Positions 6,186-45,338 of a stretch of 46,909 nt of DNA are shown here, piece after piece; within the stretch, counting starts at the first letter, position 1; each line of letters begins with the position of its first letter. The notes beneath the pieces are model-generated. The model had not been told where the DNA came from and made no database searches. It saw only the letters and a program-made list of their open reading frames with translations. A program made the position numbers and the translations under genes. Origin of the DNA: an uncultured Rhodospirillaceae bacterium (GTDB lineage: Bacteria > Pseudomonadota > Alphaproteobacteria > UBA8366); assembly GCA_913043025.1 (NCBI GenBank), contig CAJWLM010000023.1:1-46909 (forward strand). Direction: 5' to 3'.

Positions 6186-7775
6186 CTATCCACGTATGAT
6201 GTCATAGCGTTGATCGTCTTCTGTCCTCATTTGTTCTGCCAACTCAATTTCCCAATTCAAATATGCCTTCATGGCCTCTTCTTTATTCACCTCCTCCTCC
6301 CGGGCTTTCAAACGAATATCAAGGGCTTCACTCAACATTCTTTCAGGGCCAGTCTCCACTTTAAAGCCAGCAGATACCCATGCATTGGTTCCACCCGCAA
6401 GCGCCTTCGCAGGTGGGGTAAGTTGCGAGGCGGCCAACCGCGCTAGCTTCCCGTCAGGAGAAGTGAGAACTAGGGTGCCAGAATTACTCAAGTCGCCTAT
6501 GACACTTGGAAACTGACTCCTTAGGACAAACGCGGCGCCCGGAATATGCCCGTTGAGATACTCTTTGCTCATAGCAAGGTCCACTACTTGAACAGCCTCT
6601 GCATCCATTGAGCTCCTCAGTTCAGCTGCTGAAATCATATTAACTCCAGCATCTTCTAACCCAAGTATATTTGGAGACCATATGCCTGTCTCTATTTCGA
6701 TGTCTTTTCCATCTGTTGAAAACGTTGCCACATCCCAGCCCATTTGTTTCATCCAATAAGCCGTAAACGTAGCTCGCACAGATGTATCATCAATGAGCAC
6801 CACTCTTGCGCCCCAAGTTGCACAATGTCGGTCTGTTTCCTGAACAAGTTGCCCGCCCGCTATATGCTTAGCCCCTTTCAGATGCCCTGCTTCAAATTCT
6901 TTCGCGGTCCTTACATCAAATAAGTAGAGTGTTCTTATTTCATTTTCTTTCCGCCAATTCGAAAGAGTTGCCAGATCTATTGCCCTTATACCTGCTCGTT
7001 TTGCGACCCGTTTAGCTGCATCTTTTGCAACTGCCAGACCGTTAGCCGATACTTCCGGAGCTGCTCTATTCGCACCATCGATTATGTCATAGCCAGCGAG
7101 GTGCCATCCCTGCGTTCCATTAGCAAGTGAGACGACATCATTCGGGTAACCTGCGACACGCAAAGCTTCGGCACCTATGATACTTCTCGTACGCCCGCCG
7201 CAGTTGATGACGACCTTGGTTTCTGATGAAGGAACCATGTCCTTAAACCGGTAAACAAGCTCGGCACCCGGAGCACTTATTGCATTTGGGATGCTATTTC
7301 CGTGATACTCCTCAAAGGTACGTGTATCAAAAAGAACCACATCTGACTTATTGTCGAGCATCGCCTTCAATTCATCAGCAGAGATATGCGGTGTCCCAGC
7401 ATCGCATTCAATTAGTTCTGCAAACGCTTTGCTGGGAACATGCATCCCACTGTAAATTCTATGGCCTGCTTTTTCCCATCCCGATAATCCCTCGCTCAGA
7501 ACGTGAATATCTGACCAACCGAGAGATGACATTCGTTCAGCGGCTAATTGTGCGTACCCCTCTCCATCATCACACCAAACCACGCGCACACTTCGTCGTG
7601 GCACCAAAGCATCCACTAAACACTCAAGTCTGCCAATTGGAACACAGGAGGCCATGAATATATGGCGGCTATCAAACGGTACTTCCTCACGTGCATCTAA
7701 CAATGCGACTTCGCCGCCATCATGAAAATATGACTTTAGAGTTTGAGCATCGATCTGTTCAATTTGTTTTCCCAT
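6186..7775 (-). CDS. Four-domain rhodanese-related sulfurtransferase
   Basis: A 529-residue protein with four tandem rhodanese-homology domains, at about residues 5-110, 128-235, 262-365 and 378-475. Domain 1 has a cysteine in the loop position (C68, WCDDGEG) and domain 2 has a clear active-site loop (C192, CGGRTRS). The equivalent loops of domains 3 (LIDDTSVR, about 327-334) and 4 (LTSPDGKLA, about 437-445) lack cysteine, so they are probably catalytically silent. The C-terminus is a charged helix. I chose the ATG at 7775 because AAGGTG precedes it and it begins at the first domain. The longer in-frame form to 7940 would run into the divergent oxygenase gene. Role: persulfide transfer, perhaps handling sulfur released by neighbouring enzymes. 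Confidence 0.85.
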   Translation of the reverse strand: MGKQIEQIDAQTLKSYFHDGGEVALLDAREEVPFDSRHIFMASCVPIGRLECLVDALVPRRSVRVVWCDDGEGYAQLAAERMSSLGWSDIHVLSEGLSGWEKAGHRIYSGMHVPSKAFAELIECDAGTPHISADELKAMLDNKSDVVLFDTRTFEEYHGNSIPNAISAPGAELVYRFKDMVPSSETKVVINCGGRTRSIIGAEALRVAGYPNDVVSLANGTQGWHLAGYDIIDGANRAAPEVSANGLAVAKDAAKRVAKRAGIRAIDLATLSNWRKENEIRTLYLFDVRTAKEFEAGHLKGAKHIAGGQLVQETDRHCATWGARVVLIDDTSVRATFTAYWMKQMGWDVATFSTDGKDIEIETGIWSPNILGLEDAGVNMISAAELRSSMDAEAVQVVDLAMSKEYLNGHIPGAAFVLRSQFPSVIGDLSNSGTLVLTSPDGKLARLAASQLTPPAKALAGGTNAWVSAGFKVETGPERMLSEALDIRLKAREEEVNKEEAMKAYLNWEIELAEQMRTEDDQRYDIIRG

Positions 7776-7913
7776 GGTATTCACCTTCTTCCGAGTGTTA
7801 AGGCAAAAGTCTGCCTCGTCTGAGGGTCGTTTTAGATTGGGCTCTACAACAGCTTGTGGAGTAATGATGATCGAGCAATAATACAAGAGGCTTGATAACT
7901 TGATGGATTTGCT

Positions 7914-8804
7914 ATGTCCGACAATGATGTTTTTACCCACCCTTATAAATTAGGTGACCTTGAGGTTGTGCCATGCTCAACTGTGATCGGCGCTGAAATA
8001 CGAAATATTGATATTTCCAAAGAACTCTCAGCTGAGATAATCGTAAGCCTCATTCAAGCTTGGCATACCCATCTGGTTCTACTATTCCGGCAACAAGACC
8101 TGGCGCCAGAACAGCATATCGCCTTCACCTCATATTTTGGCACACCACAAAGCCCTAATCGGACATCGTTTACCCCCCTTACCGAGAAATATCCTGAGAT
8201 TATAGAGGTGATGAACGTCGATATGGATGACAAACAGCTTGATCACAGTCTCGGAAATTCAGAGGCCATGTGGCACACCGACATGTCCTACAAGCCGGTT
8301 CCACCACTAGGAAGCGCACTTTATTCTCGAGAAATACCACCTAATGGCGGCGATACATGCGTCAGCAACATGTATCTGGCCTATGATGATCTTTCTGAGG
8401 AGATGTTAAGGGAAATCGATGATAAGTGCGCTGTGCATGATGAAAGCCGCAACAGCGCTGGCATTTTACGTCCAGGCTTTCCGGATCAAAAAGATCCTAC
8501 AAAGACGCCTGGGCCACATCACCCGATAATTCGTACTCACCCTGAGACCAAGCGCAAAACTTTATTCCTAGGTCGCCGACCCTACAGTTACGTACCGGGT
8601 CTATCTTATGACAAAAGTGAGTATCTTCTCGACCGTCTCTGGGCACATGCCTCACAAAAGAAATATTCCTGGTGTCATCAATGGGCTGTAGGCGATCTTC
8701 TGCTATGGGATAACAGATGCGTAATGCATCGCCGTGATCCATTTGATAAAAACCAAAGACGTGTCATGCACCGGACGCAAATTGCTGGTAGCCGCCCCTT
8801 TTAG
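7914..8804 (+). CDS. TauD/TfdA-family Fe(II)/2-oxoglutarate dioxygenase
   Basis: A 296-residue member of the taurine/2,4-D dioxygenase family. Members hydroxylate a small acid with O2 and 2-oxoglutarate, often so that a C-S or C-O bond breaks. The iron triad is visible: H121 and D123 in WHTDMSYKP, and H272 in WDNRCVMH. R287 (RVMHRT) is the usual 2-oxoglutarate-binding arginine. Length is typical (about 280-300). It is divergent from the rhodanese gene with 138 bases between starts, so the two could share a control region. The substrate is not predictable; taurine, other sulfonates or aryloxy acids are family precedents. Confidence 0.88.
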   Translation: MSDNDVFTHPYKLGDLEVVPCSTVIGAEIRNIDISKELSAEIIVSLIQAWHTHLVLLFRQQDLAPEQHIAFTSYFGTPQSPNRTSFTPLTEKYPEIIEVMNVDMDDKQLDHSLGNSEAMWHTDMSYKPVPPLGSALYSREIPPNGGDTCVSNMYLAYDDLSEEMLREIDDKCAVHDESRNSAGILRPGFPDQKDPTKTPGPHHPIIRTHPETKRKTLFLGRRPYSYVPGLSYDKSEYLLDRLWAHASQKKYSWCHQWAVGDLLLWDNRCVMHRRDPFDKNQRRVMHRTQIAGSRPF

Positions 8805-11731: not shown

Positions 11732-13465
11732 ATGGCAAAAAAACGAATAACGCCCGAACAGTTGCGTTCACAACGGTGGTACAAAGGGATAAGCTTGAGT
11801 TCATTTACTCACCGTTCGCGTTCCAAACAGATGGGTTACAGCGCAGACGAATTTCATGATAAGCCAGCGATTGCGATAATAAACACTTGGTCTGATATCA
11901 ACCAATGCCACCAACACTTTAAGTACCGTATTGACGATGTTAAACGCGGTGTATGGCAAGCAGGAGGCTTCCCGGTTGAGCTGCCAGCGATGAGCTTATC
12001 TGAACCATTTGTTAAACCATCAACCATGCTATATCGAAACATGTTGGCGATGGAAGCAGAAGAACTTCTGCGCTCACACCCAATTGATGGAGCTGTTCTT
12101 ATGGGCGGATGTGATAAAACCACACCGGCTCTTCTCATGGCAGCAGCAAGTATGAATATCCCAGCTATTTATTTACCGGCAGGGCCAATGCTAAGAGGAA
12201 ATTATCGAAGTCAATTCCTAGGCAGTGGAACCGACAGTTGGCGGTTTTGGGATGAACTTAGAGCTGGAACCATTACAGAAGAGGAGTGGTATGAAGCTGA
12301 AGACGGAATAGCCCGATCGCCGGGCCATTGTATGACAATGGGAACCGCTTCAACCATGACCTCAGCTGCAGAAGCTCTTGGCATGACGCTACCTGGCGCG
12401 GCCTCAATACCAGCAGCAGACTCGAATCACGCCAGAATGTCGGCTTCTTGCGGCAAACGTATTGTTGACATGGTGTGGGAAGATATGTGTCCAAAAAATT
12501 TAATTACTGTAAAAAGCTTGGAAAATGCCATAACAACGGTTATGGCGCTCGGCGGGTCAACCAATGCCGCAATACATTTACTTGCGATCGGGCACAGATT
12601 GGGACTCGGTATAGGTCTCGAAAAATTTGATGAACTTTCTCGAATAACACCTGTACTCGCTGATATTCAGCCTTCAGGTAAATTCCTAATGGAGGATTTT
12701 TATTATTCTGGAGGTCTTCGCGGTTTGCTAAATCGGATCAAAGAACTCTTGCATACTGATGCCTTAACGGTAAATGGCAAAACTTTGGGAGAAAATATAG
12801 AAGGAGCCAAAGTTTATAATGATGAAGTTATACGTTGCCGTGAAAATCCTATGTCAAAAGAGGGAGGATTAGTCGTGCTTAAAGGCAACTTATGCCCGGA
12901 CGGAGCTGTAATCAAACATACCGCTGCCGACCCCAAATTTCATCAACATACGGGGCCCGCTGTAGTCTTTGAAAGCCATCCTGACCTGTTAAAACGAATT
13001 GATGACCCAGACCTCAAGGTAACTCCTGAAAGCGTTATAGTTATGAAGAATGCAGGACCAGTCGGTGGTCCAGGCATGCCTGAATGGGGCATGCTGCCAA
13101 TTCCAAAAAAATTATTGCAAGCTGGTGTGCGTGACATAGTCCGCATATCTGACGCACGCATGAGTGGCACTTCATACGGCACTTGTGTTTTACATGTAGC
13201 GCCAGAATCGTTCATAGGAGGAAATCTCGCATTAGTGGAAAATGGAGACTTGATCACATTGGATATTTTTGGTCGGTCTCTAAACATGGAGGTGAGCGAA
13301 AAAGAATTAGCGGACCGCCGCGCTGAGTGGAAGCCGCCAAAGCCTCATTATCTCCGTGGTTATGGTTGGATGTATTCACAACACATCCAACAAGCAGATA
13401 AAGGGTGTGACTTCGACTTTTTGCAATCTACCGATCCAATACCCGAACCCGAATTACATCACTAA
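11732..13465 (+). CDS. IlvD/Edd-family sugar-acid dehydratase (L-arabinonate/D-xylonate dehydratase type)
   Basis: A 577-residue iron-sulfur dehydratase closest in pattern to L-arabinonate and other pentonate dehydratases, not to IlvD. The three cluster cysteines stand at C59 (INQCHQ), C127 (GGCDKTTPA) and C200 (SPGHCMTMG), the positions known for the [2Fe-2S] pentonate enzymes. The catalytic serine is at about S478 in DARMSGTSYG. Length is typical (about 575-580). The product should be a 2-keto-3-deoxy acid. It is followed 19 bases later by an HpcH/HpaI aldolase that could cleave that product, a compact non-phosphorylating route. Confidence 0.92.
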   Translation: MAKKRITPEQLRSQRWYKGISLSSFTHRSRSKQMGYSADEFHDKPAIAIINTWSDINQCHQHFKYRIDDVKRGVWQAGGFPVELPAMSLSEPFVKPSTMLYRNMLAMEAEELLRSHPIDGAVLMGGCDKTTPALLMAAASMNIPAIYLPAGPMLRGNYRSQFLGSGTDSWRFWDELRAGTITEEEWYEAEDGIARSPGHCMTMGTASTMTSAAEALGMTLPGAASIPAADSNHARMSASCGKRIVDMVWEDMCPKNLITVKSLENAITTVMALGGSTNAAIHLLAIGHRLGLGIGLEKFDELSRITPVLADIQPSGKFLMEDFYYSGGLRGLLNRIKELLHTDALTVNGKTLGENIEGAKVYNDEVIRCRENPMSKEGGLVVLKGNLCPDGAVIKHTAADPKFHQHTGPAVVFESHPDLLKRIDDPDLKVTPESVIVMKNAGPVGGPGMPEWGMLPIPKKLLQAGVRDIVRISDARMSGTSYGTCVLHVAPESFIGGNLALVENGDLITLDIFGRSLNMEVSEKELADRRAEWKPPKPHYLRGYGWMYSQHIQQADKGCDFDFLQSTDPIPEPELHH

Positions 13466-13484
13466 GAACAAGGAAGGAAAACAA

Positions 13485-14291
13485 ATGAAGCTTCGGAAAA
13501 ATAAATTTAAGGCTGCCATCCGCCGCGGTGATTTTCAAATCGGGCTATGGTCGGGTCTGCGTTCTACACTGGTAGCTGAGATGCTCACACAGGTTGCGGC
13601 ATTTGACTGGACCGTGATTGATATGGAACATTCTCCTAACGAACTCGGAGATGTTCTTACACAGCTGCAAGTTGCCCAGCAGGGGCACGCTGAGCCAATG
13701 GTGCGCGTACCCTGGAATGAAGCGGTTATAGTTAAACGAGTACTCGACATAGGCGCACAGACTATTCTTTTTCCAATGATCCAGAATGCGGATGAGGCAG
13801 CGCAAGCGGTTGCAGCGACAAGGTATCCGCAAAACGATGGCATTCGAGGTGTCATGAGTCTAGCGCGAATGAATAATTATGGTGCAACGCCTGATTATTA
13901 TCTAAAGGCGCATCAAGAAATTTGCGTGGTAGTTCAATGCGAGACGGTTGAAGCGGTACAAAACATACCAGAAATTTGTAAAGTGAAGGGAGTGGATGGA
14001 ATTTTCGTGGGCCCATCAGACCTCTCTGCCTCAATGGGCCATATTGGTAACCCATACCAAAAAGACGTGCAAAAGATGATAAAAAAGGCTGTCAATGCTT
14101 GTAAAAAAGCAGGCAAACCAGCCGGGTATCTTACTGGGGATGAAACCCAAGCGAAGCAAATGATCGATTGGGGTTTTAGTTTTGTTGCAGTCGGATCCGA
14201 CATGGCCGTGTTAACTAATGCTTCGCGTGCATTAGCCGACCGTTTCCAAGAATATTGTGCTCGAAAGGCAAAGCGTAAAAAGAAAAAATAG
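13485..14291 (+). CDS. HpcH/HpaI-family 2-keto-3-deoxy acid aldolase
   Basis: A 268-residue class II (metal-dependent) aldolase related to 2,4-dihydroxyhept-2-enedioate and 2-keto-3-deoxy-L-rhamnonate aldolases, which split a 2-keto acid into pyruvate and an aldehyde. Expected residues: H49 (DMEHS), R74 (VRVPW), metal ligands E153 (QCETVEA) and D179 (VGPSDLS). The start at 13485 has a strong AAGGAAGGA site; the frame open upstream to 13356 overlaps the dehydratase gene and is ignored. The last residues are a run of lysine and arginine (KAKRKKKK), unusual for the family. It forms an operon with the dehydratase. Confidence 0.9.
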   Translation: MKLRKNKFKAAIRRGDFQIGLWSGLRSTLVAEMLTQVAAFDWTVIDMEHSPNELGDVLTQLQVAQQGHAEPMVRVPWNEAVIVKRVLDIGAQTILFPMIQNADEAAQAVAATRYPQNDGIRGVMSLARMNNYGATPDYYLKAHQEICVVVQCETVEAVQNIPEICKVKGVDGIFVGPSDLSASMGHIGNPYQKDVQKMIKKAVNACKKAGKPAGYLTGDETQAKQMIDWGFSFVAVGSDMAVLTNASRALADRFQEYCARKAKRKKKK

Positions 14292-18428: not shown

Positions 18429-19694
18429 GTGAGCATTGTTTTGGGATGCATTGCCGATGATTTTACAGGTGCAACGGACCTAGCAAATATGCTGGTGCAG
18501 CAAGGCATGCCCACAATCCAATTGATTGGCACTCCAAAAAACGAGATGGATATCGGCAGAGCGAAGGCTGTAGTGATTGCGCTGAAATCCCGGACTATGA
18601 AAGCAGAAAAGGCAGTTTCCTTATCGATCGATGCATTAAAATGGCTCCGGGCCGCAGGCGCCAAGCAATTTCTGTTTAAATATTGCTCTACTTTTGACTC
18701 CACTGACCAGGGAAATATAGGGCCAGTCGCGGATGCACTGAAAGCAGAGCTTGGCCTGAAGTTTACAATAGTCTGCCCTGCATTTCCAGAAAATGGGCGA
18801 ACGGTATATAACGGCAATCTATTTGTATTCAATGATCTTTTGTCGGAATCTAACATGCGTGATCACCCGTTAACTCCAATGACTGACAGTAATCTCTTAC
18901 GTATTCTTGGCCGCCAAACAACTCAAAAAATTGGCCTGATAGAGCATCAGACTGTTGCTAAAGGACCCGATGCAATAAACAAAGCGTACGATAAACTACA
19001 AAAAAATGGTGTTAGATATGCAATTATAGATGCAATTTATAATGAAGACTTGTTGGCAATTGGGACTGCGTCGAAAGAGCTAGTATTCATCACTGGTGGT
19101 TCTGGCATAGCGCTTGGACTGCCCAGTATTTTTAGGGAAGCCAAATTAATAGAAGATGCAGTTCCGCCTACGTTTCCGATGAAGAATGGAGCTAGAGTTG
19201 TACTTGCGGGAAGCTGCTCCGTCCGAACGATAGAACAAATAGCGAAATGGAAAGAAAAATTTCCTGCACTTCGCATCGAGCCAGAAGCTGTCATGCAAGG
19301 CAAACCAGTTGTCCGTGAAGCTGTTAAATGGGCTTTGAGAAAAATGCCTAACACTCCTATCTTAATATACACATCCGACAGCCCAAATGCCGTGACCAAA
19401 CTTCAAAAACATTACAACAAGTCTGAAGTTGGTAGATCTTTAGAAAAAATATTTGGAGCAATCGCCCAACAGCTGGTCAAAAAAGGCGCCGACCGTGTCA
19501 TAGTGGCAGGCGGCGAGACTTCAGGTGCGGTAGTTAAAGCTCTCGATGTAAGTGCCTTAAAAATAGGGCCCGAGATATCTTATGGAGTACCTTGGACTGA
19601 AACTATCGGCAAAACACAAATCTCTTTAGCGCTTAAGTCAGGGAACTTTGGTGACATAAATTTTTTCAACAAAGCTTTTAAGGTTCTAGGATGA
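18429..19694 (+). CDS. otnK: Four-carbon acid-sugar kinase (3-oxo-tetronate 4-kinase type)
   Basis: A 421-residue kinase of the OtnK/YgbK family, which phosphorylates 3-oxo-tetronate (from threonate or erythronate) at O4. The N-terminal signature ADDFTGATD lies at residues 9-17, followed by FKYCSTFDSTDQGNIGPV (about 83-100). The C-terminal nucleotide-binding domain has VIVAGGETSGAV. The start is GTG with AGGGGAC seven bases ahead. It is the first gene of a four-gene operon whose every junction is an ATGA overlap. Product with the next enzyme: dihydroxyacetone phosphate plus CO2. A 13-base perfect dyad lies about 175 bases upstream. Confidence 0.88.
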   Translation: MSIVLGCIADDFTGATDLANMLVQQGMPTIQLIGTPKNEMDIGRAKAVVIALKSRTMKAEKAVSLSIDALKWLRAAGAKQFLFKYCSTFDSTDQGNIGPVADALKAELGLKFTIVCPAFPENGRTVYNGNLFVFNDLLSESNMRDHPLTPMTDSNLLRILGRQTTQKIGLIEHQTVAKGPDAINKAYDKLQKNGVRYAIIDAIYNEDLLAIGTASKELVFITGGSGIALGLPSIFREAKLIEDAVPPTFPMKNGARVVLAGSCSVRTIEQIAKWKEKFPALRIEPEAVMQGKPVVREAVKWALRKMPNTPILIYTSDSPNAVTKLQKHYNKSEVGRSLEKIFGAIAQQLVKKGADRVIVAGGETSGAVVKALDVSALKIGPEISYGVPWTETIGKTQISLALKSGNFGDINFFNKAFKVLG

Positions 19695-20326
19695 GTTCAG
19701 AGACTAAGTTACGCGATGCAATAGCACGCCTTGCAAAATCTATGTATGATCGTGGTCTCACTGTCGGATCATCAGGAAATATAAGCGTACGCGTTGATAA
19801 TGGGTGGTTGATGACACCCACAGGCTCTACTATGGGATGTTTAGACCCTAGCAGGATTTCAAAACTTGATGATGATGGTGTCTTAATAAACGGTGACCCA
19901 CCTACAAAAGAAACTTTTCTCCATCGTGCCATGTATGAGATGAGACCAGGAACTGGAGCCGTTGTTCACCTTCACTCAACACATTCTGTTGCAGTTAGCT
20001 GTCTTAAAGATATAGACCCAAAAAATGTATTGCCGCCAATTACCGCCTATTATGTAATGAGAATCGGCACCCTTCCCCTAATACCCTATTTTCCGCCGGG
20101 TGACATTAAACTTGCAAATGCCGTGCGCGAGATGGCATCGAAGCACCACGCAGTTTTACTTGCTAATCATGGCCCGGTAGTCGCTGGCACGTCACTAGAG
20201 GACGCCGTATACGCTACTGAAGAATTAGAAGAGACGGCGAAATTATTTTTAATGCTAAAGAATCTTAACACAAGCTTCTTGACCGACGAACAAGTAGAAA
20301 CACTAAAGAATAAATTCCCTACATGA
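19691..20326 (+). CDS. otnC: Class II aldolase-like 3-oxo-tetronate 4-phosphate decarboxylase
   Basis: A 211-residue AraD/FucA-type zinc enzyme matching OtnC, which decarboxylates 3-oxo-tetronate 4-phosphate to dihydroxyacetone phosphate. Visible residues: GSSGNISVR (26-34), catalytic E74 (TKETFLH), zinc ligands H93 and H95 (VHLHST) and H160 (ANHGP). The start overlaps the otnK stop as ATGA. The pairing with OtnK is the strongest support for a tetronate route instead of a fuculose or ribulose phosphate role. The isomerase OtnI, which often joins this pair, is not in the operon. Confidence 0.88.
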   Translation: MSSETKLRDAIARLAKSMYDRGLTVGSSGNISVRVDNGWLMTPTGSTMGCLDPSRISKLDDDGVLINGDPPTKETFLHRAMYEMRPGTGAVVHLHSTHSVAVSCLKDIDPKNVLPPITAYYVMRIGTLPLIPYFPPGDIKLANAVREMASKHHAVLLANHGPVVAGTSLEDAVYATEELEETAKLFLMLKNLNTSFLTDEQVETLKNKFPT

Positions 20327-21582
20327 CTAACTCAATCCGCAGATGGCTGACGATGGGCTGCCTGATGCTTGCAGGTGAGTCTATATTCTTATTGCCCTAT
20401 ATGCGAAAAACATTTCAAACTTCAATTGAAGAAGTTTTCACAATATCAAGTACTGAGCTTGGATTTCTCAGCTCTATGTTCGGCATACTAGCGCTCGCCT
20501 GCTATTTCCCAGGCGGCTGGCTCGCTGACCGTTTTTCAATTCGAACTCTATTAAGCACATCTCTTATCGCTACTGGGATTGGTGGTTTTTATATCCTTAC
20601 CATTCCGAGTTTCACACAATTGCTCCTTTTACATGCCTTTTGGGGTATAACCTCGATCCTCACATTTTGGGCCGCTTTACTGAAGGCAACACGCCTTTGG
20701 GGAACACCGGAGACACAAGGCGCAAGTTTTGGGCTGCTTGAGGGCGGACGTGGAGTTGTCGCCGCCATTATTGTAACAATAGCCACTGCAGCGTTCGCAT
20801 TTTCAGATGGTAATGCGGATCCACATGCTGGGTTAACCTCTGTCGCGATGGTTTATTCGATCACACCAATCTTAGCAGGGCTTGCAGTCTGGCTCATACT
20901 CGCGAAAGATGAAACAAATACAACAAGACCTAAGAGCAGAACCAGAGATACAGCAAATTTAATTAAAAAAACTTCTAAAATTCCAGAAGTGTGGTTGCTA
21001 GCTGTTATTATTTTTTTTGCATACTTCATTTATACGGGCTCATATTATTTCCCGGCATACGTCGAAAGAGGATTGGGAGAAACAAAACTGTTCGGGGCTC
21101 AACTAGGAGTATTTCGCGACTGGTTACGCCCGGCGGCGGCAATAGCAGCAGGAGTAATAGCCGATCGGATCGGAATAAGTCGTGGAATAGCGATCGGATT
21201 TCTTGTGTTAATTGTGCTTTACGGCACGCTGTTTTTCGCACCTTCAAATACTAACACCTATCAATTTCTTTTTTCACAGGTGGCAATCATCTCCATAATG
21301 GTTTTTGCTCTCAGAGCGATATATTTCGCATTAATGGAGGAATGTAAAATACCGGTTATTCTTACCGGTATTACTGTAGGCATTGTGTCGACACTAGCCT
21401 ACACACCCGACATTTTTTCTCATATTATCGCCGGCTTTTTTCTAGATTATTTCAAAGGAATTGATGGGTTTCGCTATTTCTTTGGCTTGCTTTCTGTCAT
21501 GGCGGCAGCAGGCCTGGTGAGTACTCTTGCTTTACGCCACAAGCTCTGCATTTTGGAAACAAAGAAGGCACCCTCCATATGA
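20323..21582 (+). CDS. Major facilitator superfamily transporter
   Basis: A 419-residue inner-membrane carrier with about 12 hydrophobic segments. MFS motif A appears between TM2 and TM3 as GWLADRFSIR, and a second copy-like motif GVIADRIGISRG sits in the C-terminal half. A charged central loop (about residues 190-220, KDETNTTRPKSRTRD) separates the two six-helix bundles. It overlaps otnC and the next gene by ATGA, so it is made in step with the tetronate enzymes and most likely imports their acid substrate. Direction and substrate are inferred from context only. Confidence 0.88.
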   Translation: MTNSIRRWLTMGCLMLAGESIFLLPYMRKTFQTSIEEVFTISSTELGFLSSMFGILALACYFPGGWLADRFSIRTLLSTSLIATGIGGFYILTIPSFTQLLLLHAFWGITSILTFWAALLKATRLWGTPETQGASFGLLEGGRGVVAAIIVTIATAAFAFSDGNADPHAGLTSVAMVYSITPILAGLAVWLILAKDETNTTRPKSRTRDTANLIKKTSKIPEVWLLAVIIFFAYFIYTGSYYFPAYVERGLGETKLFGAQLGVFRDWLRPAAAIAAGVIADRIGISRGIAIGFLVLIVLYGTLFFAPSNTNTYQFLFSQVAIISIMVFALRAIYFALMEECKIPVILTGITVGIVSTLAYTPDIFSHIIAGFFLDYFKGIDGFRYFFGLLSVMAAAGLVSTLALRHKLCILETKKAPSI

Positions 21583-22550
21583 AAAAGGAACTACCTAAAA
21601 CCGTACTCTTGCATAAAAATCCTGAATCACTTGCTCAAAATATCAAAGCACACTTCCCAAATTTACCTCTCATATTAATCGATAATTATTCCGATGTTCC
21701 CCAATCACTTAGAAAGGAAAAACCAGAAGTTTTCTTCGCGTTTAAGACAGGTGAGGAAGATCAGTTTCCCCGTTCAGCAGTTCTCAATTGTGAGAGCATC
21801 AAATGGATACAGGCATCTGGAGCAGGCGTAGATCATTGGACGCCATGGGATCCGACCATCGTAACAGTCACCAATGCATCCGGCATCCATGCCGAAATAA
21901 TGGCCCAGTATACGACTTGGGCAATTTTAAACCAGAAATTAGGTTTTCCAAGAATGGCAGAACGTCAGTCGCAAAAAAAATGGGACAAAAAATTACTTGA
22001 GTCTGTCGTCGGACAAACCCTTGTGATCGTAGGATATGGACGTATTGGAAAAGAGGTGGGCCGTTTAGCAAAAACTATTGGGCTGAAGGTTATTGGGGTA
22101 CGCAAACGCCCGTCCCCATGTCCGTATGCTGACGAAGTAGTTAGCAACTGCGATCTGCGAAACGCTTTGGGGAAAGCAGATTTTATTTTGAACGTGCTGC
22201 CACTGACCGAAGAAACACGCGGATTTTTTAACACAGATATTTTCTATTCCATAAAAAAGGGTGCCTATCTGATTAATACGGGTCGGGGTCATGTTATAGA
22301 CGAATGCGCACTAGTAGAGGCGCTCAGAAGCGGGCAGCTGTCTGGGGCAACTCTTGATGTCTTCGCGGATGAACCGTTGCCTTCCAACAATCCCCTTTGG
22401 ACTACCAATAATGTAATAATCACTCCTCACACAGCTGGTGACGCCGTAGATTGGGAAGATGCAATAACCGATTTATTCTGTGATAATCTGCGGCGGTGGA
22501 AGAATAATGAGAAGCTCGAGAACATTGTTGATCCATCGCGTGGTTATTAA
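21579..22550 (+). CDS. D-isomer-specific 2-hydroxyacid dehydrogenase
   Basis: A 323-residue NAD(P)-dependent dehydrogenase of the glycerate/glyoxylate reductase type. Rossmann motif GYGRIG is at 152-157. The catalytic triad is R236 (NTGRGHV), E265 (ADEPLP) and H284 (TPHTAG). After the second strand comes GVRKRP, with basic residues that favour NADP(H) over NAD(H). It is the last gene of the otn operon, coupled to the transporter by ATGA. In this setting it may oxidise the C2 hydroxyl of a tetronate, or reduce a 2-oxo intermediate. Known threonate pathways use a different dehydrogenase family, so this would be a variant. Confidence 0.88.
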   Translation: MKKELPKTVLLHKNPESLAQNIKAHFPNLPLILIDNYSDVPQSLRKEKPEVFFAFKTGEEDQFPRSAVLNCESIKWIQASGAGVDHWTPWDPTIVTVTNASGIHAEIMAQYTTWAILNQKLGFPRMAERQSQKKWDKKLLESVVGQTLVIVGYGRIGKEVGRLAKTIGLKVIGVRKRPSPCPYADEVVSNCDLRNALGKADFILNVLPLTEETRGFFNTDIFYSIKKGAYLINTGRGHVIDECALVEALRSGQLSGATLDVFADEPLPSNNPLWTTNNVIITPHTAGDAVDWEDAITDLFCDNLRRWKNNEKLENIVDPSRGY

Positions 22551-22647: not shown

Positions 22648-23835
22648 CTAATGTGGCGGATATGCCCAATGTGGAGGATTCCAAAATATTTGAGGACCAA
22701 TATCTGAAATGCTGTTCAACCCTAGTTGGGCCATTGTGCGGTCCATTTCCTCATAAAAAATTTCTAGCGCTCGATACGCACCATCCTCGCCTGCCGCTGC
22801 ACAACCATAAAGCGTTGGACGTCCTGACATCACTAAATCTGCTCCACAAGCAACAGCTTTTATTATGTCAGAACCGCGCCTCGGCCCAGAGTCAATGGCA
22901 ATCATGAAGTCCTTGCCAACTGCCGCCCGTGTTTCAGCCGTGATCTGCAAGGGAGATGGCGCATTATCTACGTAACGGCCACCATGATTTGAGAGGATAA
23001 CGCCATGGAGCCCGTGTTTAGCTGCAAGCACCGCATCCTCTGAGCTATAAAGGCCTTTTATCAACAAGTTTCCCGGCCATATGTCTTGAATGCGTTTTAT
23101 GTCATCCCAGCACTGACTATCAGGCTTGGTATGACTCTGACCCTGTTTAACGCTCATATCCGATAGTTTTTTTCCCAGTTCAGCTGGATAATTCTCTTTT
23201 TTGAATGCCCCCCTCCGTAAATACTGCCTCAACAACACTCTAAAAATCCACCCAGGCCTAGCTAAGACGTCACCTGCCATGCGGGAACTGTATCGAAGTG
23301 GCATCGAATATCCATTACGATTATTATGTTCTCGATTAGCACCAACTGGCCCGTCTACCGTAACTACTAAAGTTTTATAACCAACGTCCCTTATACGCTC
23401 AACAAACCTCGATCGAAGTTCTTTGTCATTCCACATGTAGAGTTGAAACCAAAGGTGCTCGCCCCCCGCAGCTTCATATATCTCATCAAGCGGCGTCACA
23501 GCACTGGTAGCCGCAGTACATACAACGCCCATTCGTTGTGCTGCTTTTGCAAGTAATATCTCGCCACCGAACCATGTAATCCCAGCTGACGCAGTTGGTG
23601 AAATACCAAATGGCATTTTTAAGTTAGTACCAAAAATTTTGGTGCTACAAGAACGTTCTGAAACATCAACCAAAACACGGTTCTTTAGTTTAAGTTTCTT
23701 GTAGACCTGACGATTATTTATCAATGCAATATAGTCTTCCGCGCCAAGGTCAATGTACTCGAACAACCCTCGAGGAAGTTTCCGTTTCGCTATCCGACGT
23801 AGATCTTCAATATTATAGGCAACGAAATTGGTCAT
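22648..23835 (-). CDS. FMN-dependent alpha-hydroxyacid dehydrogenase, paralogue 1
   Basis: A 395-residue (beta/alpha)8 flavoprotein of the L-lactate/mandelate/glycolate oxidase family, which oxidises an L-2-hydroxyacid to a 2-oxoacid. Signatures: ISPTASAGITWFGGE, the FMN-lysine in LLIKGL, the active-site LSNHGGRYVD and DSGPRRGSD...MSGRPTLYG. It is the most divergent of three tandem copies: it lacks the AAAE ending of the others, has P where they have A in DSG(A/P)RRG, and N-A-P-S-P instead of CAPAP or CAAAP after the active site. The start is ATG 23835; a TTG directly before it is unlikely. It closes the five-gene operon. Confidence 0.9.
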   Translation of the reverse strand: MTNFVAYNIEDLRRIAKRKLPRGLFEYIDLGAEDYIALINNRQVYKKLKLKNRVLVDVSERSCSTKIFGTNLKMPFGISPTASAGITWFGGEILLAKAAQRMGVVCTAATSAVTPLDEIYEAAGGEHLWFQLYMWNDKELRSRFVERIRDVGYKTLVVTVDGPVGANREHNNRNGYSMPLRYSSRMAGDVLARPGWIFRVLLRQYLRRGAFKKENYPAELGKKLSDMSVKQGQSHTKPDSQCWDDIKRIQDIWPGNLLIKGLYSSEDAVLAAKHGLHGVILSNHGGRYVDNAPSPLQITAETRAAVGKDFMIAIDSGPRRGSDIIKAVACGADLVMSGRPTLYGCAAAGEDGAYRALEIFYEEMDRTMAQLGLNSISDIGPQIFWNPPHWAYPPH

Positions 23836-23952
23836 CAATATTTGCGCTCTTATTGAAAAAGATAGACGTATAATAACTAAGCTAAAACCTGACAGCGATG
23901 CCAGATTATTGTTAGCGAAAATCGATCAAATCGTTGATATTTGGGTGCAATG

Positions 23953-25164
23953 CTATTCTGCTGCTGCCCGAGTTATCTGTTGCCGCTGTGGCACCCAATC
24001 TGGCGGATTCCAGAAAATTTCCGGGCCAATATCGGCTACGGAATTAAGTCCTAGCTGCGCCATAACACGATCCATTTCGTCGTAAAATATTTCAAGTGCT
24101 CGAAAAGAGCCTTCCGCTCCGGCAACTGCAGCGCCCCAAAGCGTTGGTCGGCCAGACATTACAAGATCGGCTCCTAAAGCCATCGCCTTAACAAGATCTG
24201 AGCCACGGCGAGCACCACTGTCTATAATCACAGTAAAGTCATTACCCACCGCAGTCCGCGTCTCCGGTAAAAGTTGAAGAGGTGCCGGCGCACAGTCCAC
24301 ATAACGACCACCATGATTAGAAAGAACTACACCATCGAGCCCCTTTTCTTTGGCGATTAAGGCATCTTCGGCACTGTGAAGCCCTTTTATCAAAAGATTG
24401 CCAGGCCAATTGTCGCGAATTCTCATCACATGATCCCAAGTGAGATTATCAGTCTTTGTATGCATGTGCTTGAGCATCGGATCGGTAATACGACTGATAA
24501 GTTCTTCAGGGTAGTTAACCATAGTTGGTGCACCCCGTTTAACATAGTGCTGTCCAAGTACACGGATTAGCCATCCAGGTCGGGCAAGTAGTTGGGCAAA
24601 TAAGGTTGGCGAATATTTAAGCGGCATTGAGAAACCATTCTTCTTATTATATTCACGATTAGAACCCACGGGCCCATCAACAGTGATGATTAAAGTCTCA
24701 AAGCCTACAGATTTGATGCGATTTATTTGCATCATGCTGAGATCGTTATCTGGCCACATATAAACCTGAAACCAGAGATTCCCATCACCAGCCACATCCC
24801 ATATTTCCTCCATGGCCGTCTGAGCATTTAATGCGATCGTGCACGGAACTCTCATCTTCGTAGCTGCAACGGCAACACCCGCTTCCCCACCAAAAGACAT
24901 AAGGCCAGCAGTGCCGGTAGGAGAAATACCGTAAGGCATGGCGGCCTTTTTTCCGAAAATAGTCGTTTCAATGGAGCGTTTTGAAACATCAACTAAAACA
25001 CGATTTTTAATTTTAAGCTGTTTGTATGCATCACGATTATTTTTTAGAGCTATGCCATCTTCAGCACCACCATCGACATAATCAAAGACGCCTTTCGGAA
25101 CTCGCTGTTTAGCTTTCTGCCGCAAGTCTTCAATATTATAGGCACCAAAATTAGCGTTGGTCAT
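23953..25164 (-). CDS. FMN-dependent alpha-hydroxyacid dehydrogenase, paralogue 2
   Basis: A 403-residue member of the same family. Active-site SNHGGRYVDCAPAPLQ, flavin-binding DSGARRGSDLVKAMALGADLVMSGRPTLWG and LIKGL are intact. The N-terminus begins GAYNIEDLRQKAKQRVPKGVFDYVDGGAEDG, the usual opening of these oxidases. A GGGGA ribosome site precedes the start. The C-terminus ends NPPDWVPQRQQITRAAAE, closely parallel to paralogue 3. No membrane anchor is evident, unlike classical mandelate dehydrogenase where an internal segment binds the membrane, although a variable hydrophobic stretch (TLFAQLLARPGWLIRVLGQHYV) lies in the corresponding place. Confidence 0.92.
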   Translation of the reverse strand: MTNANFGAYNIEDLRQKAKQRVPKGVFDYVDGGAEDGIALKNNRDAYKQLKIKNRVLVDVSKRSIETTIFGKKAAMPYGISPTGTAGLMSFGGEAGVAVAATKMRVPCTIALNAQTAMEEIWDVAGDGNLWFQVYMWPDNDLSMMQINRIKSVGFETLIITVDGPVGSNREYNKKNGFSMPLKYSPTLFAQLLARPGWLIRVLGQHYVKRGAPTMVNYPEELISRITDPMLKHMHTKTDNLTWDHVMRIRDNWPGNLLIKGLHSAEDALIAKEKGLDGVVLSNHGGRYVDCAPAPLQLLPETRTAVGNDFTVIIDSGARRGSDLVKAMALGADLVMSGRPTLWGAAVAGAEGSFRALEIFYDEMDRVMAQLGLNSVADIGPEIFWNPPDWVPQRQQITRAAAE

Positions 25165-25307
25165 AAAAGCATCCCCTTACAAGCAGTACAATTAAACAAC
25201 AGCACCGTTTCAGTAATGACATTTCAATCATGCCAATTGCGCAGTCAGCCATTTAATGAGCTTTAACTCAGCACATTTTAGTTCGATCGCTTAATAGCGC
25301 AATTCAT

Positions 25308-26516
25308 CTATTCCGCGGCAGCTCTGAAGCCAAGCTGGGGTCTGGGTACCCATTCGGGCGGATTCCAGAAAATCTGTGGACCAATCTCCTCAATAGTGTT
25401 GAGACCCAATTGGGCCATTACCCGATCCATCTCATCATAAAAAATTTCGAGAGCACGGTAAGCACCCGCCTCATTGCCTGCAGCCGCTCCAAATAACGTA
25501 GGTCGACCGGACATCACCATATCAGCCCCAAGTGCTATAGCCTTTACTAGGTCTGAGCCACGGCGAGCTCCAGAATCAATGATTATTTTAATTCGATCAC
25601 CAACTGCCGCTTTTGTCTCTGGAAGGACCTGTAATGGTGCCGCCGCACAATCCACATAACGTCCGCCATGATTGGATAATATCACACCCTCAAGCCCTTC
25701 GTCTGCCGCAAGGACAGCATCTTCGGCACTCTGCAGCCCCTTGATTAAAAGATTGCCCTTCCACACATCGCGAATTTTTCTAATGTCTTCCCAAGATTGA
25801 CGGTCGGTTTTTACTACACTCATTTCCTCGGATGCTACAGTCACTCTCCTCTCAATTTCTTCCGGATAGTTCTCTTTTCTAAATGCACCTCGGTTAAGAT
25901 ACTGTTTTAAAAGAACTCGATAACACCACCCGGGCCTTGCAAGAACCTGAGAAATTAGCTTTGGAGTATATTTCAGCGGTGCGTGAAAACCATTCTTCTT
26001 GTTATATTCACGATTGGGACCAACTGGCCCATCAACAGTGACTATGAGTGTTTCGAACCCCGTCGCTTTTACGCGGTCGAGAAATTTCATGCTCATCTCT
26101 TTATCCGCCCACATGTAAAGCTGGAACCAAAGGTTTCCACCGGCCGCCTCAGCGATTTCTTCCATGGGCAGTAATGCATTTGTTGCAACCGTACAGGGTA
26201 CACCCATTCTAGCAGCGGCCTTAGCAAGCCCTATCTCACCGCCATAATATACAAGCCCCCCTGCCCCAGTAGGTGAAATGCCATACGGCATTTTGATTTT
26301 TTTGCCAAAAATTTCAGTTTCAGCAGATCGTTGCGAAACGTCAATCAATACCCGGTTTTTAACCTTAAGGGACGTGTAAGCATCACGGTTGTTCTGCACG
26401 CCGATGCCATCTTCCGCACCACCGTCTATGAATTCAAATATACCGTGTGGAAGACGCCGTTTTGCACCCTGGCGCAAATCTTCAATATTATAAAAACCCA
26501 TGTGATCAGCAGACAT
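25308..26516 (-). CDS. FMN-dependent alpha-hydroxyacid dehydrogenase, paralogue 3
   Basis: A 402-residue L-2-hydroxyacid dehydrogenase/oxidase. K259 (LLIKGL), H283 and R286 (SNHGGRYVD, 281-289) and the late GRPTLFG loop are in place. A hydrophobic-aromatic variable stretch at about 186-207 (KLISQVLARPGWCYRVLLKQY) matches the region that anchors mandelate dehydrogenases to the membrane, but it is not clearly transmembrane. AAAGGAAT precedes the start. It follows the ThDP decarboxylase pair by 63 bases. Electron acceptor (oxygen or the quinone pool) cannot be told from sequence. Confidence 0.92.
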   Translation of the reverse strand: MSADHMGFYNIEDLRQGAKRRLPHGIFEFIDGGAEDGIGVQNNRDAYTSLKVKNRVLIDVSQRSAETEIFGKKIKMPYGISPTGAGGLVYYGGEIGLAKAAARMGVPCTVATNALLPMEEIAEAAGGNLWFQLYMWADKEMSMKFLDRVKATGFETLIVTVDGPVGPNREYNKKNGFHAPLKYTPKLISQVLARPGWCYRVLLKQYLNRGAFRKENYPEEIERRVTVASEEMSVVKTDRQSWEDIRKIRDVWKGNLLIKGLQSAEDAVLAADEGLEGVILSNHGGRYVDCAAAPLQVLPETKAAVGDRIKIIIDSGARRGSDLVKAIALGADMVMSGRPTLFGAAAGNEAGAYRALEIFYDEMDRVMAQLGLNTIEEIGPQIFWNPPEWVPRPQLGFRAAAE

Positions 26517-26579
26517 CCCATATTCCTTTAATATTTTTAATCGTTTTGGTGTACAAAAATAAATATCTGGAGCAACGAA

Positions 26580-27164
26580 TTAGACACCAATCAATTCTCC
26601 CCTTACATCTTGAACTACTTTTACCCTGTCCCGATTATTCCATGGCTTTCGTTGACCAATCGGAGTATTTTCAATTGTTGGCGCTACCTTGAGATGAACA
26701 AATATGGGTCCCTCTTTCGCGAGGATTTCTGGCATCCCAACCTCTAAGTCCGAGAGCTCAGAATACGAATGGGCTTTTGGGTAGCCACACGCTGTCGCTA
26801 TTCCAGAATAATCGACTACTTTAGCATTAGGCACAGGTTGGCCACCCGTAGTGGCATAAATTTCATTATCGAGCATGAAATGGTAAAAATTTGTAGGGGC
26901 TTGTTCCGCGATTGTAGCAAGCATGCCCATTGACATATGAATGTCTCCATCTGAATCAAATAAGACAACTTTTTTCTTCGGCTGTGCGAGAGCAATACCT
27001 AACGCATAGCTAGCGTGCCCACCCATGGCGGGATCTCCCATAGTCGCGTCAAGTTTCTCGTTGTCCGTTATCGGAACCCAATGACGACCACCACGACCCG
27101 ATAATACTACTGCATCATCTCTGTATTTGAGGAAAAGTTTCATAACATCAGCTGTTTCCATCAT
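26580..27164 (-). CDS. ThDP-dependent decarboxylase, C-terminal (beta) subunit, ComE-like
   Basis: A 194-residue pyrophosphate-binding half of a split thiamine diphosphate enzyme, similar to sulfopyruvate decarboxylase beta subunit and phosphonopyruvate decarboxylase. The diphosphate/Mg2+ motif runs from DSDGD (70-74) to N100 in DNEIYATTGGQ; the usual GDG is changed to SDG. MGGHASYALGIALA (47-60) is the typical cofactor-domain helix. I chose ATG 27164, with AGGGG nine bases ahead; an upstream TTG at 27170 is less likely. It lies 15 bases after its alpha subunit, so both should make one enzyme. The 2-oxoacid substrate is not fixed by these motifs. Confidence 0.85.
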   Translation of the reverse strand: MMETADVMKLFLKYRDDAVVLSGRGGRHWVPITDNEKLDATMGDPAMGGHASYALGIALAQPKKKVVLFDSDGDIHMSMGMLATIAEQAPTNFYHFMLDNEIYATTGGQPVPNAKVVDYSGIATACGYPKAHSYSELSDLEVGMPEILAKEGPIFVHLKVAPTIENTPIGQRKPWNNRDRVKVVQDVRGELIGV

Positions 27165-27179
27165 GGTCAAAGACCCCTT

Positions 27180-27695
27180 TTACCTATTAAAACCGTGAAA
27201 TTCATCGGCAACCAGCACAGCAACTGGACCATTAACTTTCTCGCATTCATCAAAGGCCACACTGATGCGATCTGCATCACTATCGCTCTCAACGAGATAA
27301 TATTTTATTTGAAACGCATTTAGAAATGGCTCTGTAAAATCTGCTGCCGTATCGGTGGTAACTCCATGTCGAGTGTAACCACGATAGCCCACCATCATTA
27401 CGCATGGGATTTTTAGGCTCTTCAACCATCCGCGTATCGAGTCACCAGACTCCATAAGGCCAGTATTTTGTATAAGTACTACCGGTTTGGCACCACCGGT
27501 GTAGAGCCCCGCAGCTACTGCAGCTGCATTTCCCTCACGTCCGACACCAACCATGTGCAGATCCGGGTCAGCATTAAGTAATGTAAAAAGAAAATTAGTT
27601 TCGCTGTCTGGCAACCAAATTACATGCGTTACGCCATGTTCCTTAAATTTCTGGTGCACAGTTTCCGGGCTGAGCACATCCGCAGTTTCGGCCAT
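27180..27695 (-). CDS. ThDP-dependent decarboxylase, N-terminal (alpha) subunit, ComD-like
   Basis: A 171-residue pyrimidine-binding half of the same enzyme. The catalytic glutamate that activates the cofactor is E54 in VGREGNAAAVAAGLY. QNTGLMESGDSIRGW (76-90) is the pattern seen in sulfopyruvate and phosphonopyruvate decarboxylases, followed by IPCVMMVGYRG. It heads the five-gene minus-strand operon, with AAAGGGGAG before its start. Known relatives turn 3-sulfopyruvate to sulfoacetaldehyde or 3-phosphonopyruvate to phosphonoacetaldehyde. No phosphoenolpyruvate mutase is nearby, which argues against the phosphonate version. Confidence 0.85.
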   Translation of the reverse strand: MAETADVLSPETVHQKFKEHGVTHVIWLPDSETNFLFTLLNADPDLHMVGVGREGNAAAVAAGLYTGGAKPVVLIQNTGLMESGDSIRGWLKSLKIPCVMMVGYRGYTRHGVTTDTAADFTEPFLNAFQIKYYLVESDSDADRISVAFDECEKVNGPVAVLVADEFHGFNR

Positions 27696-40791: not shown

Positions 40792-41637
40792 ATGGTTGAG
40801 TCCTTAAACATAACACCTATTTCAGGAGCGCTGGGAGCACGTGTCAACGGTTTGGACCTGGCAAGTAGGTTGGACCCGCGGATAACGCATTTATTGAAAG
40901 ACGCGCTACTCAAATATCTGGTATTGGTTTTCCCAAACCAAGAGCTTACGCCAAAAGATCAACTTAAAATTGCACGAAAGTTTGGCAGGCCAGACATCTA
41001 CCCGTTCCTAGATGGAATAGATGGACACCCTGAGATCATCGAAATATTAAAGACAGAAAAAGATAAAATTAATTTTGGAGTTCATTGGCATTCTGACACT
41101 ACTTATATGGCAAGACCAAACATGGGTACGATTCTCTACGCCATCGAAGTCCCGAGATATGGCGGAGATACCCTGTTCGCTAATATGTACAAAGCATATG
41201 ATTCACTTTCACCGGGCCTAAAGTCCATGCTTCACAATGTAAGGGGACACTACAGCTCTGCTCAGAAAAACATTGGTGGTCGTGATGCCAAAATGAAAAA
41301 CTTAACCGGCATGAAGAAGGCATATACCGAAACTCGGGCTATAGAGGCGATTCATCCGATCATACGCACACATCCGGAAACTGGTCGAAAAGCCCTATAT
41401 GTAAATTTCTCTCATACAACTCATTTTGAAGGCATGACACCAGAAGAAACGCTGCCGATATTACGTTATCTTACCAATCATGCCGTGCGCCCGGAACTCA
41501 CCTGCAGGCTCAGGTGGAAACAAGGTGATTTAGTAATATGGGACAACAGATGCACCCAACATAAAGCACTTAATGATTACCAGGGTCAACGCCGTCAAAT
41601 GCATAGAATAACTCTAAAAGGTGGGCGGCCTAAATAA
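40792..41637 (+). CDS. TauD/TfdA-family dioxygenase
   Basis: A 281-residue Fe(II)/2-oxoglutarate oxygenase. Iron ligands are H100 and D102 (HWHSDTTYM) and H257 (WDNRCTQH); R272 (MHRITLKGG) binds 2-oxoglutarate. NGLDLASRLDPRI and IHPIIRTHPETGRKALYVN are family signatures. It differs from the copy at 7914 in the substrate-facing segments, so they are not recent duplicates. It stands 391 bases ahead of malate synthase G on the same strand. Substrate unknown. Confidence 0.88.
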   Translation: MVESLNITPISGALGARVNGLDLASRLDPRITHLLKDALLKYLVLVFPNQELTPKDQLKIARKFGRPDIYPFLDGIDGHPEIIEILKTEKDKINFGVHWHSDTTYMARPNMGTILYAIEVPRYGGDTLFANMYKAYDSLSPGLKSMLHNVRGHYSSAQKNIGGRDAKMKNLTGMKKAYTETRAIEAIHPIIRTHPETGRKALYVNFSHTTHFEGMTPEETLPILRYLTNHAVRPELTCRLRWKQGDLVIWDNRCTQHKALNDYQGQRRQMHRITLKGGRPK

Positions 41638-45160: not shown

Positions 45161-45338
45161 CGGATATCCCCTTTTTACCTTTTTTACCATAATATGCACA
45201 GATCGTTATCATCGGAATTATAATGATGATCCGTAACCGGTGTAGCACAAAATATTCTTTGGAAATACCTCATTGCTGAATACAAGAGTTATATTGATTC
45301 CATGAAAATTAGAGGAAACTTTATAGTGGGGAAAACTG

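Follow-up and report, generated by a model that had tools for sequence, protein, structure and literature searches.

A split thiamine diphosphate enzyme encoded with three FMN-dependent dehydrogenase paralogues: a candidate oxidative-decarboxylation module in uncultured Rhodospirillales

Described systems and the five-gene cluster

In the mandelate pathway, the flavin mononucleotide (FMN)-dependent (S)-mandelate dehydrogenase MdlB is paired with the thiamine diphosphate (ThDP)-dependent benzoylformate decarboxylase MdlC. Here we analyzed positions 1–46,909 of contig CAJWLM010000023.1 (assembly GCA_913043025.1), a stretch of 46,909 nucleotides (nt) hereafter called the window, from an uncultured Rhodospirillaceae bacterium with a genome of 3.08 Mb in 65 contigs. 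Five minus-strand genes at 22,648–27,695 encode a split ThDP enzyme (ThD and ThE) and three FMN_dh paralogues (FMN1–FMN3). The cluster resembles the mandelate pathway in its logic of an FMN dehydrogenase followed by a ThDP decarboxylase, and FMN1–FMN3 are MdlB-like over their whole length. It differs in that its decarboxylase is split and ComDE/RhiEF-like, whereas MdlC is single-chain, in having three FMN paralogues instead of one, and in containing no mandelate racemase.

Closest to the decarboxylase are the ComDE and RhiEF enzymes; RhiEF is described as a two-subunit ThDP phosphonopyruvate decarboxylase (PMC12141560). The window pair shares with them the two-subunit organization, with N- and C-terminal halves in adjacent genes, and the catalytic Glu, but it scores below curated cut-offs, carries S[D/E]GD in place of GDG, sits on a separate branch and keeps other partner genes. 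FMN1–FMN3 have the fold family and catalytic residues of LldD and other L-2-hydroxyacid oxidases (PF01070), yet fall below the LldD cut-off, and FMN1 bears Phe at a Tyr site. The catabolism of C4 acid sugars is represented by OtnK and OtnC, both above cut-off next to the cluster; unlike the cluster genes they are not constant, and OtnC acts on a 3-oxo compound and belongs to the class II aldolase family rather than to the ThDP enzymes. By analogy, the reaction logic is a known one, of the mandelate type, built from different parts. The original prediction had named no described pathway with this arrangement. This holds for the gene combination, of which no description was found in the open-licence PMC literature (titles and abstract starts of the papers listed), but not for the reaction logic, which is that of the mandelate pathway.

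We propose that the cluster is probably an oxidative-decarboxylation module for 2-hydroxyacids, in which the FMN enzymes act before the ThDP pair. One or more of the three MdlB/LldD-type dehydrogenases would oxidize a 2-hydroxyacid to a 2-oxoacid, and the electrons would pass to the membrane, probably to quinone, by way of an MdlB-like internal segment. ThD and ThE would form one ThDP enzyme complex that converts the 2-oxoacid to an aldehyde and CO2. This order of reactions, already put forward in the original prediction, is still the best reading: two gene orders retain the full set, a third retains part of it, and RhiEF is the nearest solved structure for both ThDP subunits. The proposal is based on homology and on gene company, and the strongest argument for a joint function is that the ThDP pair and FMN genes repeatedly occur side by side.

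The arrangement first reported, five genes on one strand with ThD and ThE 15 bases apart, was confirmed in coordinates, order and gap (Table 1), and the set recurs in five of the 43 genomes that make up our sample of the order. The 15-nt gap is counted from the ATG of ThE at 27,164 (a longer TTG frame begins at 27,170), and the gaps that follow measure 63, 143 and 114 nt. A promoter and terminator scan returned fewer sites than shuffled sequence. Ratios of nonsynonymous to synonymous substitution rates (dN/dS) were taken against genome G042, synonymous divergence from the second cluster-bearing genus being saturated. They amount to 0.016 for ThD, 0.019 for ThE, 0.020 for FMN1, 0.058 for FMN2 and 0.068 for FMN3; the neighboring D-2-hydroxyacid dehydrogenase and major facilitator superfamily (MFS) transporter genes gave 0.124 and 0.119. 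Strong purifying selection acts on each of the five cluster genes, and all three FMN paralogues are maintained.

Distribution of the cluster and properties of its enzymes

ThE orthologues (58–99% identity) are present in nine of the 43 order genomes. The five genomes with the full set make up the whole of two genera in the sample, the window's own (three genomes) and a second one (two genomes), and their paralogues are 1:1 orthologous (identity to the window 84–98% for FMN1, 82–96% for FMN2 and 75–94% for FMN3). The order is ThD–ThE–FMN1–FMN2–FMN3 in the window's genus and ThD–ThE–FMN2–FMN3–FMN1–aminotransferase in the second (loci L041 and L042). In L041, ThE and the three successive FMN genes are separated by 64, 4 and 12 nt, and a gene for a class III aminotransferase starts 37 nt past FMN1. 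In the four genomes that hold the pair outside these two genera, no FMN gene was found beside it in the stretches fetched (one contig measuring 4.6 kb). Of 130 loci matching ThE in named genomes, 80 were kept, some of which belong to the 43 order genomes. FMN relatives lie near ThE in four of them: three are cluster genomes already counted, and the fourth, L050, is from a metagenome-assembled genome (MAG) titled Rhodospirillales (G423). There, an FMN3-like gene directly precedes ThD–ThE, and the contig opens on the final 99 codons of a further FMN gene, to which FMN1 is nearest by identity and FMN2 by score. Another G423 contig breaks off inside an FMN2 orthologue (81% over 275 amino acids); since these two pieces are possibly one gene, two FMN genes are certain in G423 and a third is not. 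With FMN genes upstream of the pair, this is a third gene order, cut by contig ends. The search for conserved co-occurrence suggested at the outset thus yielded the full set in two genera and a partial one in G423, against 76 of 80 pair loci in which no FMN gene was found.

Among 385 genomes of the class, ThE (E ≤ 1e-45) occurs in at least three and the FMN subfamily (E ≤ 1e-130) in at least three, and the window's genome is the only one with both among the class matches listed. Because linkage is narrow in the order, class and named-genome scans, the pair and the FMN genes are best described as two gene families brought together in a small number of lineages.

Pfam places ThD in TPP_enzyme_N (PF02776, 30.6 bits; cut-off 26.8) and ThE in TPP_enzyme_C (PF02775, 60.5 bits; cut-off 21.9). 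Against the sulfopyruvate decarboxylase models, ThD reaches 83.9 bits (TIGR03845, cut-off 147.95) and ThE 99.1 bits (TIGR03846, cut-off 221.5). The phosphonopyruvate decarboxylase model TIGR03297 (cut-off 312.5), the best NCBIfam model of ThE, gives 109 bits for ThE and 45.9 for ThD, and NF004813 gives 91 bits for ThE (cut-off 240). Judged by these curated cut-offs, the pair is related to the ComDE and phosphonopyruvate decarboxylase families and a member of none. The closest solved structures are RhiE for the ThD profile (PDB 9iz3_A, E = 1e-14) and RhiF for the ThE profile (9iz3_B, E = 5e-19). Next for ThE come the thiamine pyrophosphate (TPP) pair 9u8q (4e-8), acetolactate synthase (3e-6) and benzoylformate decarboxylases (about 1e-5), and for ThD, DXP synthase (3e-6) and then the 9u8q pair.

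ThD adjoins ThE in 73 of the 80 loci, and the catalytic-Glu position is kept in 74 of 75 ThD rows. At the ThDP/Mg site, all 78 ThE rows (the window and 77 of the 80 loci, three having no picked ThE frame) show S[D/E]GD instead of the GDG motif, with Glu in 72 and Asp in six, and the downstream DN of the motif is kept in all 78. A Glu at the ThDP metal site is unusual; an Asp-to-Glu mutant of a bacterial pyruvate decarboxylase reportedly retains some function. Conserved ES-DS and TRHG stretches of the pair are unlike RhiE/RhiF. In a tree of 31 ThE sequences, the S[E/D]GD group splits from the genome's ComE, the phosphonopyruvate decarboxylase and other paralogues with a support of 1.000.

The pair's family is found in MAGs titled Alphaproteobacteria, Betaproteobacteria and Chloroflexi (Dehalococcoidia, SAR202). 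Five loci in MAGs titled Dehalococcoidia or SAR202 (L105, L115, L117, L123 and L126) carry the same ThDP pair in a common neighborhood of alpha/beta hydrolase and coenzyme A (CoA)-transferase III genes, with a thiolase-like gene in four of the five. A constant partner was sought within 4 kb in the 80 named loci; TctC receptors were met 19 times, a gene of the metallo-beta-lactamase fold 17 times and DinB 13 times, and no general partner gene besides ThD emerged across these loci. Further neighbors elsewhere are equally mixed (CoA-transferase III, amidohydrolase and class III aminotransferase). On a Bradyrhizobium guangxiense plasmid (one record inspected of seven Bradyrhizobium records of equal score), a pair of 50% identity comes after genes for two DAO-family flavoenzymes and an amidase, and its ThE gene shares 4 nt with that of an aldehyde dehydrogenase. 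This context fits a putative sequence of flavin-dependent oxidation, 2-oxoacid decarboxylation and aldehyde oxidation. Aldehyde dehydrogenase was rejected as a general partner: it is adjacent only at the inspected Bradyrhizobium locus, and the 80 loci gave one weak match (28% identity, 7 kb off).

The three FMN proteins match PF01070 (FMN_dh) over profile positions 1–349 of 350, at 396 (FMN1), 382 (FMN2) and 373 bits (FMN3; cut-off 24.9). They stay far below the NCBIfam cut-offs for LldD (207–237 bits; 550), L-lactate oxidase (193–214 bits; 645.5) and MftD (205–243 bits; 470.85). The closest single-domain structure is MdlB, 6bfg (E = 6e-83, 4e-78 and 7e-75 for FMN1, FMN2 and FMN3, respectively); only 7f22 and 7f20, two tandem constructs of L-lactate oxidase, rank above it, by summed score. 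FMN2 and FMN3, and by the match table FMN1 too, align with MdlB over the whole length, including the membrane-association segment, which is similar or longer in FMN2 and FMN3 and is the same segment in FMN1 by alignment. Such an insertion is described as accompanying membrane binding in MdlB and LldD (PMC3344892). Because FMN1–FMN3 possess an MdlB-like segment of this kind, we infer that they are membrane-bound dehydrogenases.

The three active sites had been called intact in the original prediction, which applies to FMN2 and FMN3 (seven of seven catalytic or binding positions) and with one reservation to FMN1 (six of seven). The positions examined were Tyr24, Tyr129, Asp157, Arg164, Lys230, His254 and Arg257 in what we take to be the numbering of spinach GOX; the MdlB numbers used below (Tyr26, Gly81) are likewise assumed. 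Six of the seven are invariant across the paralogues. At the remaining one, Tyr24 in GOX and Tyr26 in MdlB, FMN1 has Phe in all five genomes, as have nine of the 25 non-cluster relatives (L128, L136, L147–L150 and L157–L159). The long-chain hydroxyacid oxidase LCHAO likewise carries Phe there (PMC10153336), so the residue does not exclude activity in FMN1. At the position of MdlB Gly81, FMN1 and FMN2 have Gly and FMN3 has Ala in all five genomes, giving conserved, paralogue-specific pocket pairs (Tyr26/Gly81 positions) of F/G in FMN1, Y/G in FMN2 and Y/A in FMN3. The Gly81 position presumably influences substrate choice and oxygen reactivity.

In the FMN tree, from which L156 (with stops) was left out because its frame is broken, FMN3 falls together with the G423 gene and with relatives that belong to a different family of the order (0.995), FMN1 is joined by a gene from a third genus (0.951) and FMN2 forms its own clade (1.000); the node separating FMN2 from FMN1 and FMN3 has a support of 0.858. 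These groupings disfavor a recent triplication and suggest that the paralogues diverged before the families of the order; transfer between lineages could be an alternative source of the same picture. As the paralogues look old and differ in their pockets, they probably accept different hydroxyacids, one each, and would all supply a single decarboxylase. In the original prediction the three copies served several side chains or stereo-variants; stereo-variants would be speculative, and a separate NAD-type D-2-hydroxyacid dehydrogenase gene co-occurs with the cluster.

Alternative explanations

Several observations weigh against the proposed module. No FMN relative was found around the ThDP pair in 76 of the 80 named loci within the stretches examined, many of them on short contigs, and no ThD or ThE in any of 12 stretches around non-cluster FMN relatives (11 from the order and one from the class, with 14 FMN genes; several contigs short). 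FMN relatives of at least 560 bits occur in ten order genomes lacking the complete cluster, and G020, G021 and G035 carry the pair and FMN genes on different contigs. Only two of the five cluster genomes combine at least 90% completeness with at most 5% contamination, and the set in G423 is only partly seen because contig ends cut the locus. As for the enzymes, FMN1 has its Phe at the site of the substrate carboxylate, and 9u8q and acetolactate synthase, a carboligase, outrank benzoylformate decarboxylase for the ThE profile; with GDG replaced in every ThE row, even cofactor binding is putative. Moreover, the operon of the window's genus holds no aldehyde-consuming gene, and the nearest candidate for the aldehyde is a molybdenum aldehyde-oxidoreductase-like gene 9 kb off, below the cut-off of its model.

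The separate occurrence of the two gene families, together with the mixed neighbors of the pair elsewhere, would also be expected if the FMN enzymes and the pair acted on unrelated substrates and shared only their regulation within a catabolic island. We consider such co-location unlikely, since the five genes stand together in two orders, at least two FMN genes accompany the pair in the third, and the FMN genes of L041 follow ThE so closely. ThDP decarboxylases often carboligate too, and the pair could be mainly a carboligase, or use another donor, with the FMN enzymes providing the 2-oxoacid donor. The place of acetolactate synthase among the more distant ThE structure matches, as well as the S[D/E]GD motif and the ES-DS and TRHG stretches, would agree with this, but RhiEF, by far the closest relative of known function, is a decarboxylase, and a principal carboligase role appears quite improbable. 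It is harder still to credit that FMN1–FMN3 modify a peptide or cofactor in the manner of MftD in mycofactocin synthesis: among NCBIfam models MftD ranks second for FMN1 (243 bits) and FMN2 (228 bits), yet both remain far below its cut-off, no precursor-peptide or radical-SAM gene was recognized among the classified neighbors, and at least six of the seven hydroxyacid-site residues are kept.

Two further explanations assign the pair to a described decarboxylase family. The likeness of ThD and ThE to ComD and ComE, on which the original prediction drew, and the presence of Xsc in the genome (contig C1, 924 bits; cut-off 676) would suit a sulfolactate route in which the FMN enzymes make sulfopyruvate and the pair, as a divergent ComDE, yields sulfoacetaldehyde for Xsc. 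Both window subunits, however, lie far below the sulfopyruvate decarboxylase cut-offs. Another pair, on contig C2, exceeds both (149.4, just over, and 228.3 bits) and adjoins a gene best matched by the L-sulfolactate dehydrogenase model (359.5 bits, below the cut-off of 500), and the tree sets the window pair apart from the genome's ComE; this route is therefore very unlikely. A phosphonopyruvate decarboxylase serving phosphonate metabolism, to which the best model of ThE and the RhiEF structures would point, deserves hardly any credence: the ThE score is about a third of the TIGR03297 cut-off, a fused protein on contig C31 exceeds that cut-off (424 bits) and lies beside a phosphoenolpyruvate (PEP) mutase gene (393.5 bits; cut-off 319.55), and no phosphonate gene was recognized near the window pair among the classified open reading frames. 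Both roles were rejected, the scores being below curated cut-offs and better candidates being present elsewhere in the same genome; the window pair is probably neither a sulfopyruvate nor a phosphonopyruvate decarboxylase.

Two side observations concern other loci of the host genome (G000). The C31 locus (L190, 3096–6518) contains in a row the PEP mutase with a leading domain, the fused phosphonopyruvate decarboxylase and a third gene, and is likely a phosphonate biosynthesis cluster. Contig C17 (L189, 5248–7811) has one more ComDE-like pair, which scores 128 and 123 bits, below cut-offs, and is followed by a gene for a 455-amino-acid protein with no NCBIfam match at E ≤ 1e-25.

Genomic surroundings and implications

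The genes next to the cluster are listed in Table 1. The convergent D-2-hydroxyacid dehydrogenase gene and the MFS transporter gene probably cooperate with the proposed hydroxyacid module. The former accompanies the cluster in all five genomes; among 11 genomes tested at E ≤ 1e-60, it was found in the five with the complete cluster and not in the other six, one of which is G423.

Table 1. Cluster genes and adjacent features in the window
Feature	Position	Strand	Remarks
ThD, N-terminal (PYR) half of split ThDP enzyme	27180..27695	-	171 amino acids; ComD/RhiE-like
ThE, C-terminal (PP) half of split ThDP enzyme	26580..27164	-	194 amino acids from ATG; ComE/RhiF-like
FMN1, FMN-dependent 2-hydroxyacid dehydrogenase paralogue	25308..26516	-	PF01070; MdlB structure match
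FMN2, FMN-dependent 2-hydroxyacid dehydrogenase paralogue	23953..25164	-	PF01070; MdlB structure match
FMN3, FMN-dependent 2-hydroxyacid dehydrogenase paralogue	22648..23838	-	PF01070; MdlB structure match
D-isomer 2-hydroxyacid dehydrogenase (NAD type)	21579..22550	+	PF02826, 174 bits; convergent neighbor
MFS transporter, possible uptake system	20323..21582	+	PF07690, 87 bits; beside 5/5 clusters
OtnC, 3-oxo-tetronate 4-phosphate decarboxylase	19691..20326	+	NF043034, 328 bits (cut-off 250); beside 4/5 clusters
OtnK, 3-oxo-tetronate kinase	18429..19694	+	NF043035, 588 bits (cut-off 350); beside 3/5 clusters

OtnK and OtnC were rejected as obligate partners, not being retained beside the cluster in all five genomes. 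In locus L039 (2716–2958), both are absent where the window has them, and in L040 (1684–2214) OtnK is absent; since the gaps there measure only about 240 and 530 bases, the genes look deleted in these siblings. Further along the window, an L-arabinonate dehydratase (980 bits; cut-off 882) is followed by an HpaI/GarL-type aldolase gene (11,732–14,291); the listed aldolase frame overlaps the end of the dehydratase, so its start is probably further in. This HpaI-family aldolase and an altronate/galactarate-dehydratase-type gene are both below the cut-offs of the NCBIfam models they match. Taken together, the surroundings suggest sugar-acid catabolism. A short polyhydroxy acid such as a tetronate would fit the OtnK/OtnC and L-arabinonate dehydratase neighbors, but as the substrate of the cluster it is a doubtful candidate. 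The class III aminotransferase was rejected as a core part, for it belongs to the second genus only, and the five other family genomes searched yielded none at E ≤ 1e-80; it may serve as a clue to the fate of the aldehyde.

Elsewhere in the window, an MR_MLE-family gene (4859–6040) lies 17 kb from the cluster, and a gene at 6186–7940 encodes a protein with four rhodanese-domain stretches. By eye, a frame of 163 amino acids (4267–4758) looks like the truncated start of a PAS/histidine kinase, and three or four frames (7914–8804, 40,792–41,637, 44,252–45,199 and 45,863–46,372, the last apparently incomplete) resemble TauD-like dioxygenases.

More tentatively, ThD and ThE may represent an undescribed family of two-subunit 2-oxoacid decarboxylases, marked by the S-[E/D]-G-D motif, that some marine Rhodospirillales have combined with three FMN dehydrogenases of ancient divergence and different pockets, perhaps in one mixed complex. 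Such a system would act as a funnel that removes CO2 from several 2-hydroxyacids of dissolved organic matter. The wider picture is one of caution against annotating pairs of this kind as sulfopyruvate decarboxylase, given that this genome has a better-scoring pair elsewhere. If the proposed oxidative-decarboxylation module is real, it would provide a testable function for a widespread ThDP family that falls below the cut-off of every NCBIfam model it matched, and it would mean that uncultured marine bacteria possess a mandelate-type route assembled from other parts and probably directed at other substrates.

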